From positions 77,849 to 141,848 of the forward strand of contig FN647684.1 of NCBI GenBank assembly GCA_000310025.1: a DNA stretch of 64,000 nucleotides, read 5' to 3'. The notes below the pieces were generated by a model. It was not told where the DNA came from. It did no database searches and saw only the letters and a program-made list of their open reading frames with translations. The position numbers were made by a program, and so were the translations under genes. This document shows, piece by piece, positions 44,207 through 51,261 of the stretch (the first letter of the stretch is position 1; each line of letters opens with the position of its first letter). This DNA comes from Ectocarpus siliculosus. Its lineage: Eukaryota > Sar > Phaeophyceae > Ectocarpales > Ectocarpaceae.

Positions 44207-44444
44207 TTTATTTTGTTTTCTTTCGAATTGCTTCATTATTTCTTCGGTTTCTAGGCTACGTGTTGGGGAGAGAGACGCACGAAACGCTCATCGTCTCTCC
44301 GGCCGCGTTAGCTGCAAAGGCCGGCGTCAACTCTTACAAATCCATCTCTCTCCCCACAAATACTAGCCGGGGGACTACGACTGCAAACGCAGGAGTCCCA
44401 AAACTGACCAAGTCCTCAAATGGTACACACCATTCTACAACACC
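44207..44444 (-). repeat. Split direct repeat B2
   Basis: 238 bp, apparently identical to B1 at 44776-45013. Outer end TTTATTTTGTTTTC; inner end CATTCTACAACACC (+ strand). Confidence 0.92.
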
Positions 44445-44512
44445 TGACTAGATACCGAATATTCCCGAACTTATGCCCCCACCTTCGAAAGAAAAGGGAT
44501 GGGAGGGCGGGA

Positions 44513-44775
44513 TTTTCTAAACTGCCGCCGCTACTGCGTTAGGCGGCTGCTGCTGTCCTTCCGTTGCTTCACGCGCTCTGTAGCTGTCACACGTTACCCG
44601 ACTTTGCTACAGCCCCTGCGTGGACTCGATCACGGAATGACACCCCCAACTATAGACTAATAATTCCAAACACCGTGACCCTGGGTTTCCGGTAGAAAAT
44701 GAAGCCAAATTCTAATTCGACTGTTACAAAATAAACACCAGTTTATTCTATCTGCTTCGACGAACAAACCTTCCT
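44513..44775 (-). repeat. Split direct repeat A2
   Basis: 263 bp, apparently identical to A1 at 50458-50720; starts TTTTCTAAACTGCCGCC and ends GAACAAACCTTCCT on the + strand. Directly joined to B1. Confidence 0.92.
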
Positions 44776-45013
44776 TTTATTTTGTTTTCTTTCGAATTGC
44801 TTCATTATTTCTTCGGTTTCTAGGCTACGTGTTGGGGAGAGAGACGCACGAAACGCTCATCGTCTCTCCGGCCGCGTTAGCTGCAAAGGCCGGCGTCAAC
44901 TCTTACAAATCCATCTCTCTCCCCACAAATACTAGCCGGGGGACTACGACTGCAAACGCAGGAGTCCCAAAACTGACCAAGTCCTCAAATGGTACACACC
45001 ATTCTACAACACC
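44776..45013 (-). repeat. Split direct repeat B1
   Basis: 238 bp copy of B2, 41 bp beyond the recombinase stop codon. Confidence 0.92.
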
Positions 45014-45054
45014 CACATCGAGGTCAGTTTCTGGACGACTACCGAATAAGTCAA

Positions 45055-46137
45055 CTATCCGTTCCCCCAGACGGTCCCCTCCCCCGGCTGTCTCGATACG
45101 ATCCTACTGCCGTCTGTAAGTTTCCGTGACACTCGCCGCGAATCCTCTACATTGTTTCGCGCGTACGGCTTGTATGCATCCGACCTCCACTTCCCTTCTC
45201 TCTGAATCACTCGTTCTGCGATGTCTCCGCCCGATGCAAGAGCCGTCGCGCCTCCAATTCGCAACGAGTGCAACGCGTACTCCTGGGGGTTACGCCCCGA
45301 CCTCGCTACCACTTCTCTGAGTGCACGGAGGGCAGCAGTATACCTCACTACTCTCACTGCTCTTCCACTACGGTACGAAGCCAACGGTGCGGAGTCAGGG
45401 AACGTCGCATGACACGATAACAGCTCCACCACAAGAGCCACCGCGCCACCGCGTGCTCTCACACCTGACTGCGGTCCGGTGACTTCGTCTCGCGTACGAA
45501 CCCGTATGTTTCCTTTCTGCTCTTGATCGGCCTTGTGCCCTCTAAACCTCATTTCGACACGGTCTGCTCTACGATAGTGACTAAAGACTAATTGCGTCTC
45601 GCCAGCAAACAATGCTACGTCCGCCCTCGTAAGACAGTGTGCCTCATGCACCCTGCCCGCATCATTCGCGAACACCTCATCAGACCGTGTGATAAAGAGA
45701 TAGGACAAGCACAGACACAGCCACATCACTCTGCCCCCTTCCCCCCAGTTCTGGCTTGCGCTTTCCCCGTCCAGCAGCATACGCCAAGACACAGGCAGGC
45801 GCACACGGCGTACCGTCCCCACAGCCACGTGGTTCCTCGCAATCCCCCTTAGCGCACATTTCAACATCGGAGACGACAAGTCTAGCTCGACAGAAGCTTC
45901 CAGCCTATGAAAATGTTGTACAGCCGTGAGTTTTCCGGATATTGTACTCGCTAGATTACCCTCAGACTCGAAACACCAGGCTACGAAGTCTATCAACTCC
46001 CACACATGAAGGTCCCCGGCACGTTGCCCTACGAACTTGGGCTTCTCCGTCAGCCTGCGAAACGTGCACCAAGAGTTGAAGCCTGACGTGTAAGTCCTTC
46101 TAGACGAAGACGCAACTGAGTGCTCGACGAGCTGCAT
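45055..46137 (-). CDS. Tyrosine recombinase of the DIRS-like element
   Basis: Single-exon, 360 residues from the first ATG (46137); the frame is open further upstream without an ATG, to 46209 and beyond. It would cut and rejoin DNA to integrate the element's circular intermediate. N-terminal SAM-like core-binding region (SSSRRTYTSGFNSW, about 10-100), then the catalytic domain: R151 in FITRSDEV, H290 and R293 in ALHSLRIGG, W317 in GKWRSD where many family members have His or Trp, and nucleophile Y325 in YKPYAR. The R-H-R-(H/W)-Y set is complete, so the enzyme may be active. The RW/KWxSDAxxxYxR end matches DIRS/Ngaro recombinases better than fungal Cryptons. There are no introns, unlike every neighbouring host gene. 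It ends just before repeat B1. Confidence 0.88.
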   Translation of the reverse strand: MQLVEHSVASSSRRTYTSGFNSWCTFRRLTEKPKFVGQRAGDLHVWELIDFVAWCFESEGNLASTISGKLTAVQHFHRLEASVELDLSSPMLKCALRGIARNHVAVGTVRRVRLPVSWRMLLDGESASQNWGEGGRVMWLCLCLSYLFITRSDEVFANDAGRVHEAHCLTRADVALFAGETQLVFSHYRRADRVEMRFRGHKADQEQKGNIRVRTRDEVTGPQSGVRARGGAVALVVELLSCHATFPDSAPLASYRSGRAVRVVRYTAALRALREVVARSGRNPQEYALHSLRIGGATALASGGDIAERVIQREGKWRSDAYKPYARNNVEDSRRVSRKLTDGSRIVSRQPGEGTVWGNG

Positions 46138-46280
46138 GCCAAGACGTCGGTAACAAAGTCCCGTCCTGCCTGTCCCAGGTCCTGAACCTGCTGATAGCCC
46201 TGGAGCCAACCTCGTGTAGACCGGCGTGCTGCCGTTCGATTTAGCCGCAGGTGCGCTGCCATCCGAGGTAGGCCCCCCCG

Positions 46281-47250
46281 CTACGCGGGAGAGCCCGCAC
46301 CCCTATTTGTCTTTCCCGTGGGTGAAGAAGCCAGCGGCCTTGGGTCTCGCGCCGCCCTCGCCAGCGGCGCGCGCCTCTCCTCCGCGCCCTCCCCCGTTGC
46401 CGTGGCCAACGCCGCGCGCGCCGGTTGCCGGAGTTTCGGACGCTCCGCGCCTAGCGTGGGAAGGGTTCTGGGCGTGGATGTGTGGGCAGTTACGATCATG
46501 GCAACCGGACGACGAGTTGAAGGCGAAGCAGTAACCACGAGCGTGTCGAGCGATGCCGCCACTTTCTCTGTCACCAGGACGCCTTTGCGAAGCAAGGATT
46601 GCCACTCCATCTGCGACAGTTTTGAAACTGCCGGGGGCCGCCCCAGGATGAGCCACGCTTTTACCCGGCGGAGGTCCCCCCACATCCGCGCTCTATCCTT
46701 TGCCGTAGCCTTAGCCGCCTCGGCGCTGGGTGTAGCGGGGGCCCGAGAGGCCGATGGTGGGGCGGTTGTGCCCACAAGTTGCACCCCCCCCCGGAAGGCC
46801 AGGTCCTGCTGCTTGGGTGGCGATCAGGTCGTCGATCGTTGCTTGAAGCTGCTGGCGATCACCGGCAGCCTCATCGCGCTTCCGCTGCAGCTCCTCCCTC
46901 AGGCCGTCCACCAGCCCGCGGAGAGAAGCGAGCTCAGTCTCATCAGCGGGGGGGTCGCCGCGGGTGCCTGTCCCTGGCGCTCGCGAGGAGGATACCGCTC
47001 GACGCCTCGCGGGAGTACGTGATCCGCTGCGCGTCGAGGGGCGAGCCGTCGAGCTCGCCACCGATCGCGCGGTAGACCTCTCGTGCGTGGTGTCGAAGGT
47101 GTCGCCGCCCGACCTCGCCCTGCTTGCCCAGCCGCTGCCCTGCCGCTCCGCGTGGAGGCCCGTGTCGGCATCTGGTCGCGGTTGGAGTCGTATAAGCAGC
47201 GGACCGGCGGCAGGCGGCGGGCGAGCGTCAGGGCGGCGTTGCGGGAACAC
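46281..47250 (-). pseudogene. Gag-like region of the element, broken by frameshifts
   Basis: Three overlapping minus-strand frames share one apparent ancestral ORF. The upstream frame (47250-46711) has Arg/Ser/Pro-rich sequence and a coiled-coil segment (LASLRGLVDGLREELQ..). After a poly-G/C run near 46790 coding character moves to the frame ending at 46281 (DRARMWGDLRRVKAWL..). A CCCH-type zinc finger, CFAFNSSSGCHDRNCPHIH, sits in a third frame (within 46683-46303). This order, coiled coil, helical region, CCCH finger of the CxxFN..GxCxxxxCxxxH kind, is common in gag-like proteins of algal and animal retroelements. The frame breaks could also be assembly errors at homopolymers. No start codon is certain. 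Confidence 0.45.
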
Positions 47251-47573
47251 TTCTTTTCCTCTTCATCGTGGGCGTAGTCGATCGCGCGCCTGGATCTGCA
47301 GTTAGAATGGTCTACAAATCCTATCTTCGGGCGAAACTATCTGACGTGGGTTTTCGTCGGGCCCAGAACGACGCGTTGTTATATCGCGAGCTCGCGTTAG
47401 TTCATTCTCGACGCCTGTGGATTGAATGGAGTGATTATTGCTGCTGACGCTACGGTCACCGGACGTCGACCAATCCCGAATATTTCTCTCTTTGGAACAC
47501 TAGCGATGGTTTCTCTTTTTTTTTTTTTTATATATATATTTTTCTTGGATTCGGTGAACCCCGGTTTCGCCAA

Positions 47574-49303
47574 TCGGCACGGGTGCTTCCACTCATTGGC
47601 GCGTCCCGTGCTGATACGTGTTTTTTTTTTTTCGATGCGTTGGATACGGTGAACTCCACTTGCCAACAGCGCGGGTGCTTCCACTCATTGGCGCGTCCCT
47701 CGCTGAAACTGACAACACATATGCAGCACGGGTGCTTCCACTCATTGGCGCGACCCGCACTGATGATACTTGTACGCAGCGCGGGTGCTTCCACTCATTG
47801 GCGCGTCCCTTGCTGAAACTGACAACACATATGAGCACGGGTGCTTCCACTCATTGGCGCGTCCCGTACTGATACGTGTATGACTTCGTTTTCGATGCGT
47901 GGAGATCGGTTAACTCTACTCGCCCAACAGCACGGGTGCGCCCACTCATTGGCGCGTCCCGTACTGATACGTGTACGGCGTTTTTGTTCTTTCTTTTTGA
48001 GATCGGTTAACTCTACTCGCCAACAGCACTCATTGGCGCGTCCCTTGCTGAAACTGACAACACATATGCAGCACGGGTGCTTCCACTCATTGGCGCGTCC
48101 CGTACTGATACGTGTACGACTTCGTTTTCGATGCGTTGAATTCGGTTAACTCTACTCGCCAACAGCACGGGTGCGTCCACTCATTGGCGCGTCCCGTGCT
48201 AATACGTGTACGGCGTTTTGTTCTTTCTTTTTGAGATCGGTTAACTCTACTCGCCAACAGCACGAGTGCTTCCACTCGTTGGCGCGTCCCGTGCTGAGGC
48301 TGACAACACATATACAGCACGGGTGCTTCCACTCATTGGCGCGTCCCGTACTGATGCATGATTTGTGGTATTTCCTACCGCTGCGTTGAATTCGGTTAAC
48401 TCTACTCGCCAACAGCGCGGGTGCTTCCACTCATTGGTGCGTCCCGTGCTGATACGTGTACGGCGTTTTGTTCTTTCTTTTTGAGATCGGTTAACTCTAC
48501 TCGCCAACAGCACGAGTGCTTCCACTCGTTGGCGCGTCCCGTGCTGAGGCTGACAACACATATGCAGCACGGGTGCTTCCACTCATTGGCGCGTCCCGTA
48601 CTGATGCATGATTTGTGGTATTTCCTACCGCTGCGTTGAATTCGGTTAACTCTACTCGCCAACAGCGCGGGTGCTTCCACTCATTGGCGCGTCCCGTGCT
48701 GATACATGTACGGCGTTTTGTTCTTTCTTTTTGAGATCGGTTAACTCTACTCGCCAACAGCACGAGTGCTTCCACTCATTGGCGCGTCCCGTGCTGAGGC
48801 TGACATCACATATGCAGCACGGGTGCTTCCACTCATTGGCGCGTCCCGTACTGATGCATGATTTGTGGTATTTTTCTACCGCTGCGTTGAATTCGGTTAA
48901 CTCTACTCGCCAACAGCACGGGTGCTTCCACTCATTGGCGCGTCCCGTGCTGATACATGTACGGCGTTTTGTTCTTTCTTTTTGAGATCGGTTAACTCTA
49001 CTCACCAACCGCGACGAGTGCTTCCACTCATTGGCGCGTCCCGTGCTGAGGCTGACATCACATATGCAGCACGGGTGCTTCCACTCATTGGCGCGTCCCG
49101 TACTGATGCATGATTTGTGGTATTTTTCTACCGCTGCGTTGAATTCGGTTAACTCTACTCGCCAACAGCGCGGGTGCTTCCACTCATTGGCGCATCCCGT
49201 GCTGATACATGTATGACTTCGTGTTTCGTTGCGTTGAGATCGGTTAACTTCCACTCGCCAACAGCACGGACGAGTGCTTCCACTATTGGCGCGTCCCGTG
49301 CTG
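47574..49303. repeat. Minisatellite of about 22 hairpin units with 250-bp higher-order repeats
   Basis: The core unit, about 39 bp, is bounded by CAGCACGGG and its exact complement CCCGTGCTG, with loop TGCTTCCACTCATTGGCGCGT, so each unit can fold. Units are separated by alternating spacers (CTGACAACACATATG, TACGGCGTTTTGTTCTTTC, TGATTTGTGGTATTTC, TTCGGTTAACTCTACTCGCC). From about 48231 onward three spacers and units form a block repeated with period 250-251 bp (starts near 48231, 48481, 48731, 48982). One unit near 48025 is truncated. It gives meaningless MSGSTRA-type repetitive frames on the minus strand. Confidence 0.9.
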
Positions 49304-50457
49304 GTGCGTGTCCTTGTTTTTTTTATTTTCATTGAGATCACTTCCGCATAGACAATCCTACGGCAGGTTGACGAGTTTTTGGCATGCATCAATTGCTGTC
49401 CGGGCGTTTTTGGTCGCTTAATCGTCGATGGACGTGACGTATTCTTATAGAAGGTTTGTGTCACGGCGGCAATAAATTTGACGTGATGCCCCTCGAGACC
49501 GTGATGCACTCACATGGACCGCTACCTGACGTTCCTCGCGAGTTCGAACCTCGCGTGTCATATCCACCTCCCCCCCCTATTTTTTTCTCATCTTCTTTTT
49601 CCTTATGCATACAGCACGTAGTTCGCTGTCTCGTTTTTTTTTTCTCGTCTTCATTGTTTTTCAGTCTTTTTCTTTGAGTCTTTCTCTCGCATGCATGTGT
49701 TTTTGCTTTTATCCGTTCCCGTGAATGCTGTTGAATGCACTTTCCGATTACGTATGCGGCCGCTTTGTATGCCATGGGACTTGTCGATACCATCAGTGGG
49801 GACTTGTCAATACCATCCGTGGAGACGATTGCTTACGTGAGTGGGCATATTATCGTCGATTCCTTCAGCTATATGCCCCTCTGTGCGCGGCACAGACAAG
49901 ATTGTACCGGCAAGTAGTCCCTAGTAAGCCGGGGGAAACAGAAAACAAGGCACCTGCCTCATGTGCATAATCGTGACAGCATCATGCCCTACTGCCGCGG
50001 GTCGATTGGTTATGTCCGATGCCGCAGGGTTCCTCCACCCCGTGCAGTACAATGGCTGCTATCAACCGCGACAAGTCAGCGTGCGACCATACAACAGGCC
50101 CCGCTCTTTCTTTTTGCCGTTGAATTTTTTCTTCAGAGAGAGTACGTCTGGTTGGGACGAACCGCATTTTTTTTCTTCAGCGAGAGTACGTCTCGGTTGG
50201 GATGAACCGCATCCCATGTTTGGGAAGGGACCTATCTGAGCGGCGCGGCGAGCGAGACTGCGTTGGCTTGCCGCCGCTTATCTTACTGCACCCTCCCCCC
50301 TCGTGCTAAATGCACGCAGCGGTGAGGTCACAAGAGTAGCGGGACGCGAATAGGAACACGGCCGACACGATGGATGTTGGACACGAGTACACACCTTTAT
50401 ATGGAGAGTCGCGTGCTGGTCACTTCCCCAATGCTTGCGCCGTGTCCCGTCCCGCCC
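49304..50457. other. Non-coding internal part of the element between minisatellite and A1
   Basis: No reverse transcriptase, RNase H or other domain in any frame. Holds a tRNA-like B box with a perfect 5-bp stem (GCGAG TTCGAAC CTCGC at about 49538-49554), a poly-T/C-rich stretch (49560-49680), and a doubled segment of about 45 bp (GAGAGTACGTCTCGGTTGGGA type) at about 50135-50210. Confidence 0.55.
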
Positions 50458-50720
50458 TTTTCTAAACTGCCGCCGCTACTGCGTTAGGCGGCTGCTGCTG
50501 TCCTTCCGTTGCTTCACGCGCTCTGTAGCTGTCACACGTTACCCGACTTTGCTACAGCCCCTGCGTGGACTCGATCACGGAATGACACCCCCAACTATAG
50601 ACTAATAATTCCAAACACCGTGACCCTGGGTTTCCGGTAGAAAATGAAGCCAAATTCTAATTCGACTGTTACAAAATAAACACCAGTTTATTCTATCTGC
50701 TTCGACGAACAAACCTTCCT
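50458..50720 (-). repeat. Split direct repeat A1
   Basis: 263 bp copy of A2. Its outer end (50720) is the 5' boundary of the element on the minus strand. Confidence 0.92.
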
Positions 50721-51261
50721 GTTTCCCTCCGTGTGCGTGCCTGTCATGCAATATCTATTTAGAATTATCCGGGTGTATTGGACATGAAAATCAGATGTAC
50801 GCAGATTCCATCTTCATCTTGACCAAAACGTGGTCCAACCTACAGCTGTTTATTCACGGAGAACACGCGGACAGTAGTTATTGTTCTCCTATCTCGTGCC
50901 CGCGGCGTATATCCTTCAATCGGTAAAAGATTCACCGAAGATGGAAAAAGGTACAACAAAACTGTGTCCTGTGCGGCCTATGTAACAACAACGGCTGGTG
51001 CATCCACCACCTACGCCTAACGGTTGTACCCTGACGTAAACGAGCTTATAACTATACGCTAGGCTCCTGACATGGCACAATAGCACCATGTAGCCAACTG
51101 AGCCAGCAGCCATCAGCAGCCAGAAGCCAGCTGCACCGTGAAACCGAAACCTGACAGTCCCGTGGATTTGAAAGATCCAAGAAAAAAGCCGAGAGCTGTC
51201 CGCTGCTGTCCGCAGCGCACATAACACATAACCCGCTTGCCACGGAACCACCTGACCAAAC
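50721..51261. promoter_or_regulatory. Upstream region of the C19orf44-like gene
   Basis: 541 bp between the element boundary and the next ATG. Repeated CAGCCATCAGCAGCCAGAAGCC-like triplets lie at about 51095-51130, just before the start. The insertion may have displaced more distant promoter sequence. No TATA box assigned. Confidence 0.35.

Follow-up and report, generated by a model that had tools for sequence, protein, structure and literature searches.

A reverse-transcriptase-less Ngaro-type element family in Ectocarpus siliculosus that may arise by splicing of its parents

Within a 64,000-nucleotide stretch of the genome of the brown alga Ectocarpus siliculosus (contig FN647684.1, positions 77,849 to 141,848; hereafter the window), we analysed a 6.5-kb element with split direct repeats and a tyrosine recombinase (YR) but no reverse transcriptase (RT). 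It occupies positions 44207–50720 on the minus strand, and both ends are right to the base (AGGAAGG at 50720 and AAATAAA at 44207). The order along the minus strand is A1, U2, tandem repeats, gag remnant, YR, B1, A2, spacer and B2, and the element thus shows the A1-[open reading frames]-B1A2B2 arrangement of split direct repeats found in Ngaro elements (DIRS order).

Layout of the element

Self-comparison, with the ends matched to the base, upheld the near-identical repeat pairs, the Ngaro-like minus-strand layout and the limits proposed in an initial annotation of the sequence. The A copies (44513–44778 and 50458–50723) align without gaps over 266 bp, the sole mismatch lying within the first 3 bp, and share an identical core of 263 bp. 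A1, the 5′ repeat, spans 50458–50720; its core starts with AGGAAGG at 50720, next to an AAC at 50721–50723 that is the target or junction trinucleotide. The B copies, B1 at 44776–45013 and the 3′ repeat B2 at 44207–44444, which ends in AAATAAA, are 100% identical over 238 bp. B1 and A2 (44513–44778) overlap by 3 bp (AAA), and a 68-bp spacer (44445–44512) separates A2 from B2.

Adjoining A1 is U2 (49346–50457), which has no long frame with recognised content, followed by a diverged tandem repeat array (47561–49345, ends approximate) with periods of about 95, 156 and 250 bp and an inner inverted repeat, CAGCACGGG...CCCGTGCTG. This array upstream of gag is possibly a promoter or packaging region. 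Arrays also lie upstream of gag in a second family (L023:1020-2866 and L038:756-2679), with unlike units (about 122 bp, compared with about 95 and 250 bp in the window).

The gag remnant (46303–47340) is without 511 bp (at 46539/46538) and 84 bp (at about 46412/46411) that are present in RT-bearing siblings, and its frame at 46303–46692 contains a zinc-finger motif that we take to be of the CCCH type. The part initially annotated as gag-like is indeed derived from gag, but it is a remnant with broken frames, and the region at about 47.56–49.35 kb consists of non-coding tandem repeats. A single UAG (46303–46305) separates the gag-tail frame from the pol/YR frame. In the latter (45055–46302), a pol leader of 38 codons plus one base is fused in frame to the YR at a seam, CAGCAG|GTTCAGG (46187–46188), which is the site of 2054–2056 bp of RT–RNase H sequence in the siblings.

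An intact recombinase

The YR frame is open over 415 codons (45058–46302), with its first ATG at codon 56 (46137), and all nine YRs aligned from this genome have R206, H345, R348, W372 and Y380, which bears out the earlier description of an intact recombinase with a full R-H-R-W-Y set. The window YR had no Pfam match at E ≤ 1; among the nine aligned YRs, two matched PF00589 (best E 3.8e-4, under the curated cut-off). A PDB sequence search with the YR returned no match, and a structure predicted for the window YR alone was uninformative (mean predicted local distance difference test score, 30.9).

The ratio of non-synonymous to synonymous substitution rates (dN/dS) between the window YR and those of siblings L020 and L013 is 0.20 (13 synonymous and 8 non-synonymous changes). 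Among the 101 candidates scored of 755, YRs matching window residues 1–413 or more at ≥96% amino acid identity occur at 48 places, 44 of them without a stop, and a stop is present in 11 of the 15 listed matches of a second RT-less type, S (81–88% identity).

Absence of reverse transcriptase

As the initial annotation had stated, the 6.5 kb contain no RT. Neither the RT of another DIRS-order element, L012, used as a tblastn query, nor sibling RT DNA, used as a blastn query, matched anything in the window element. The sibling pol protein found only the 39-residue leader of the element itself (46302–46186), the remaining matches in the window having E values of 0.22 or worse, and these searches revealed no RT or RNase H coding sequence inside the element. 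The annotation had placed the missing RT at 47.3–50.4 kb. That region holds tandem repeats and no RT match, which rules out an RT hidden there; the point of loss lies between the gag tail and the YR, at 46187/46188. RT and RNase H, which are expected of Ngaro elements, are absent from the window copy and present in the siblings L013, L020, L021, L034 and L035. Since the defining RT is missing, the window element is, as judged from its sequence, a non-autonomous Ngaro-type derivative and not a full member of the group.

RT-bearing siblings and copy number

The genome searched comprised 189.5 Mb in 492 contigs. The pattern of the A start occurs at 225 places and that of the B end at 290 (up to 3 mismatches), compared with 0 for reversed-pattern controls, so these matches are not due to chance. 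In the copies read, the repeats flank recombinase copies, contrary to the possibility that they are genomic duplications unlinked to the recombinase. The fused junction of the RT-less form was found at 108 places (up to 2 mismatches; control 0). An unfused acceptor differs from this pattern by 3 bases and is therefore not counted, and none of the 100 junctions listed, of the 108, falls at the eight RT loci given next. Close relatives that carry RT were found at eight loci (C27, C74, C187, C79, C147, C156, C14 and C85; about 92% or more, some partial; best 64 of 491 candidates scored). The RT-less form, with 108 fused junctions against eight RT-bearing loci, far outnumbers its complete relatives.

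A, B, gag and YR of the window element recur in four of the siblings (L013, L020, L021 and L035; about 98% DNA identity in the YR), which also have an extra segment of 2054–2056 bp between the pol leader and the YR. This segment encodes RT (YVDD) and RNase H-like motifs, which we aligned with other DIRS-order pols of this genome. RVT_1 was matched by five of the six aligned pols at E ≤ 1 (best 6.9e-6; none reached the curated cut-off), and a pol profile gave four weak matches in the PDB (best E 0.042), two of which are RT/RNase H or Ty3 chains (E 0.35 and 0.49). The pol of L013 matched only RVT_1 in Pfam at E ≤ 1 and had no methyltransferase match, although no search aimed at methyltransferases was made; lack of that domain sets Ngaro apart from DIRS1 and PAT. 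In the siblings, a single frame runs through gag, one UAG and pol, and the YR is encoded in a different frame that overlaps the end of RNase H.

Two options had been offered for the window element, a deletion derivative or a successful RT-less lineage, and each holds in part: RT-bearing full relatives such as these four exist, from which it is derived, and RT-less copies of the same structure are numerous. The sibling L013 rules out a lineage that was independent and RT-less from the start, and the split repeats together with the RT-bearing siblings rule out a Crypton, a YR-only DNA transposon with no split repeats and no RT ancestry. The DIRS-order elements L010, L011 and L012 are excluded as direct parents, their YRs being only about 30–34% identical over 47–58 residues. 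L012 (L012:3585-7411) and L010 are separate elements with a longer pol C terminus, an extension that is absent from the siblings, and the L012 YR matches the ALOG (E 7.9e-5) and Phage_integrase (E 3.8e-4) domains, both under the cut-offs.

A seam with GT–AG ends

Around the extra segment, the siblings read CTATCAGCAG|GTGTGGATGC...GATATCGACTGGCAG|GTTCAGGACC, and the window element reads CTATCAGCAG|GTTCAGGACC at 46188/46187. The missing segment starts with GT and ends with AG (CAG|GTGTGG...GGCAG|G), and its removal in silico joins the pol leader to the YR in frame. A GT...AG seam with in-frame YR fusion is found in L013, L020, L021, L035, L023, L022 and L034. The family of L022, with an RT 68% identical, has the donor CTCAG|GTGTGG and the acceptor TGGCAG|G, and that of L023, with an RT about 53% identical, has CAGCAAG|GTGGGA and TGGCAG|G; both are in phase 1. 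In L013, L022 and L023, the distance from the donor to the same downstream methionine is exactly 49 codons, and L027, L028 and L030 likewise retain the YR frame and the acceptor CAG. The segment thus resembles an intron in its GT...AG ends and in the conservation of position and phase among diverged relatives, which extends to three families for the donor and to more for the acceptor. In the more distant L025, L026 and L029, the YR frame is separate and there is no such arrangement.

The YR frame of L023, L028 and L030 has no ATG before the conserved start, whereas that of the window lineage has one, at codon 56; in those three, some device must therefore join upstream sequence to the frame. 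The single UAG that separates gag and pol was matched in six copies (the window, L013, L034, L022, L023 and L038) from three diverged families, with no match to the same pattern in L002, and suggests that readthrough may be allowed there. One L023-family copy, L024:2-1453, differs from its relatives in that RNase H and YR run on in a single open frame (1112 codons).

Recurrent loss of reverse transcriptase

We compared four groups over the gag tail, pol leader, YR and B: F (the RT-bearing L013, L020, L021 and L035), W/I (RT-less), S (the RT-less L002 and L003) and the RT-bearing L034. Among two-letter sites that are uniform within groups, 15 split the groups two-and-two, and all 15 join S with L034; the other 71 single out one group. 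Support for the clade of S and L034 is 94 with an outgroup and 100 without. The seam is identical in W/I and S, and their gag deletions differ such that neither can be derived from the other. With RT taken as ancestral and S joining the RT-bearing L034, W/I and S would have lost it separately; whichever way the quartet is rooted, its topology requires two losses, barring a transfer of the seam by recombination.

A further case is L038, a copy of the L023 family in which gag is open over 496 codons and RT is missing. Its seam, CAGCAAG|GAACAAC, runs exactly from donor to acceptor and equals the GT–AG joint of the RT-bearing L023, to which L038 is 98.3% identical over the 3′ 1386 bp, and the ends share only 3 bp (AGG). 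L038 looks YR-inserted, because its 3′ end is the element terminus and lacks poly(A). These comparisons indicate at least two, and probably three, losses of RT at the same or homologous points. The derivation proposed initially stands; the GT...AG ends and the recurrence in separate lineages had not been foreseen.

Lineage history and insertion sites

A search for the 511-bp gag piece, in which 14 of 14 candidates were scored, gave 12 close matches, six of them at RT loci and one at C492. Five copies (L031, L032, L033, L036 and L037) keep this piece and are without RT and the 84-bp piece; it follows that RT and the 84 bp were lost first and the 511 bp later, after which the window type spread. 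Neither gag difference is taken to be an intron, as no GT–AG register was seen (judged by eye). Within copies, A1 and A2, and likewise B1 and B2, share subfamily variants, a homogeneity like that of long terminal repeats.

We examined 21 insertions chosen for having both standard end motifs, leaving out L003, L005, L007, L009 and other copies for which an end was missing or not retrieved. An A is present at −2 in all 21 and at −3 in 17, G never occurs at −1, and no duplication longer than 2 bp is seen at the boundaries, in line with the lack of target duplication in Ngaro elements. The constancy of the ends is partly selected, as AAATAAA (3′) and AGGAAGG (5′; AGGAACG in L002) were used to find them. 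Two further left ends bring A at −2 to 22 of 23: L003 fits, and L005, with a broken B2, has T at that position.

Splicing as the probable source of RT-less copies

We hypothesize, with a probability of roughly three in four, that the RT–RNase H segment of these Ngaro-type elements is an intron, and that spliced RNA was repeatedly reverse-transcribed and founded RT-less copies that siblings mobilise. In the siblings, readthrough at the UAG could produce pol from the shared gag-UAG-pol frame. The YR would be made from RNA from which the 2.05-kb RT–RNase H had been removed as a phase-1 GT–AG intron, joining the leader to the YR. Occasionally such RNA might itself be packaged and, once RT had copied it, be integrated by the YR, giving an element with gag and YR and without RT, from which the window lineage would have lost the 84 bp and then the 511 bp of gag. 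RT-less copies would amplify with RT, and probably Gag, from the siblings, and the YR would close the circle at AAA and recombine with AAH-like targets without duplicating them. The donor is the stronger of the two putative splice signals.

A wider formulation, which we consider fairly probable, is that the entire RT–RNase H gene serves as an intron subject to alternative splicing: RT would come from unspliced RNA, and spliced RNA would yield both the recombinase and a replicating genome that repeatedly founds RT-less lineages, which can outgrow their parents. If so, the switch that controls gene expression in the element also generates its own parasites, and a concrete route would be at hand for the origin of non-autonomous retroelements. 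The stages of such a route appear to be on view in this genome, from a first step with intact gag (L038) through intermediates (L031–L033, L036 and L037) to the end product in the window.

Several observations weigh against this hypothesis. In L023, with which L038 is compared, a stop interrupts the pol frame about 31 codons downstream of the donor. The acceptor falls in conserved codons of RNase H (W-Q), and its preservation is therefore no independent proof. There is no support for a special hairpin behind the gag UAG: in the four copies tested, the predicted hairpins (−15 to −28 kcal/mol) were no stronger than shuffles (z −1.72, 0.68, −1.34 and 0.22), which leaves the conserved frame as the argument for readthrough. 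Constraint on the YR is uneven, with a dN/dS of 0.41 between the window and L035, one of three window–sibling pairs, and drift among RT-less W/I copies (0.57–0.98 in five pairs). L038 has one terminal B and no A2, and its seam was found at one place only (up to 3 mismatches).

Ordinary deletion between short direct repeats, through template switching in reverse transcription or replication slippage, would make the GT–AG ends coincidental and leave a derivative mobilised in trans. The ends in the window and S lineages share a 6-bp repeat, GCAGGT, from which plain deletion could give the same product, and ordinary deletions occur in these elements, given that neither the two gag deletions of the window lineage nor the different one of S is GT–AG. 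As a null for deletion, we scanned 700 × 350 bp of L020 about the two edges. The scan gave 46 maximal repeats of ≥6 bp, 18 of which (7–10 bp) exceed the one used, yet separate lineages share this seam; GT–AG ends are possible for 2 of the 46, and for 59 of 3332 repeats of ≥3 bp. L038 is joined at the homologous donor and acceptor although these share only 3 bp, and in each family the seam brings the leader into frame with the YR. Chance would hardly account for the recurrent use of a single homologous GT–AG joint, in one case with 3 bp of homology, and we regard deletion as unlikely.

A single loss of RT, with the seam spread between S and W by recombination and L038 an unrelated coincidence or an assembly artefact, is very improbable. 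Co-packaged sibling RNAs could recombine, and a short tract between S and W is conceivable, given that the nearest group-diagnostic sites lie about 8 bp to the left and 165 bp to the right of the seam. The rooting of W, F and S is also weak: support for W/I with F is 48, and YR sites at which all four outgroups agree number five for W+F and one for W+S, on a long S branch. Against this, the left diagnostic site (CTATCAG versus CAATCAG) lies only about 8 bp from the seam, S sides with the RT-bearing L034 at every two-and-two site, and the L038 family differs by about 34% in YR DNA. Least probable of all is that the RT-less lineage moves as DNA, its YR excising and inserting circles in Crypton fashion with no RNA step: the mostly stop-free YRs, the dN/dS of 0.20 with L020 and the circle-like 3-bp junction would suit it, but the lineage descends from RT-bearing elements, keeps split repeats matched within copies across subfamilies as expected if they are rebuilt at each reverse transcription, has RT donors in the same genome and includes S-type copies that spread despite their YR stops.

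Comparison with known elements

TOC1 of Chlamydomonas is likewise an RT-less split-repeat element with internal tandem repeats, and some Ngaro elements, according to older literature, may carry introns. The Ngaro of Cafeteria burkhardae, in the passages that describe it (PMC8547959), shares with our elements the order A1-[ORFs]-B1A2B2 and a YR with H-x-x-R and Tyr; the RT-bearing siblings resemble Ngaro in carrying gag, RT, RNase H and YR, whereas the window lineage is without RT and RNase H. The deletion variants described there lack ORF1, not RT. Whereas pol and YR frames overlap in the siblings, those of Ngaro are usually non-overlapping, according to passages of a further account (PMC3266345), which also give DIRS1-type elements a 3-bp circular junction that the AAA overlap of B1 and A2 resembles. 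The passages on YR retrotransposons that we examined do not state how a YR frame overlapping pol is expressed; a conserved GT–AG RT intron would explain it for one clade.

Spliced retrotransposon RNA is already known from BARE and copia. In the passages on these elements (PMC3735527), RNA is likewise spliced for one protein, at a CAG/GT site in BARE and with the loss of 2.9 kb of pol in copia, and the parasitic BARE2 likewise outnumbers its helper. There the spliced RNA makes Gag, whereas here it would make the recombinase and appears to be a replicating genome. DNA copies of spliced BARE RNA could not be amplified, the spliced RNA is described as excluded from replication, and the same passages hold that retrotransposons must avoid replicating spliced RNA, a rule that appears to fail here, in a family at 108 places. 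SIRE, as far as its description goes, is also a non-autonomous derivative that keeps the ends of a split-repeat YR retrotransposon; it differs in consisting of two short terminal segments and one short internal segment, and the YR is unmentioned in that description. In Ectocarpus, 15 Ngaro families (3893 copies) and 5 PAT-like families (842 copies) have been recorded (PMC12477816); the passages of that account on DIRS/Ngaro and PAT-like elements describe no RT-less YR families, and the word ‘spliced’ is absent from its main text. Among the titles, abstract openings and passages of the open-access literature that we covered, none reported an RT-less YR lineage generated by splicing.

Further derivatives

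Phage records gave no match to the element, and 16 stretches of viral contigs matched a pattern, none of which was confirmed by tblastn. Shorter derivatives occur in the Ectocarpus genome that keep the family ends in whole or in part: L008 and L019 are without gag and the YR start, and L005 is without the tandem repeats and most of U2. At C12:1576822-1583246 (G000), known from pattern listings alone, the spacing of the A and B ends (A at 1582113 and 1582682) is that of an additional B-A unit, as though the element had gained another set of repeats.

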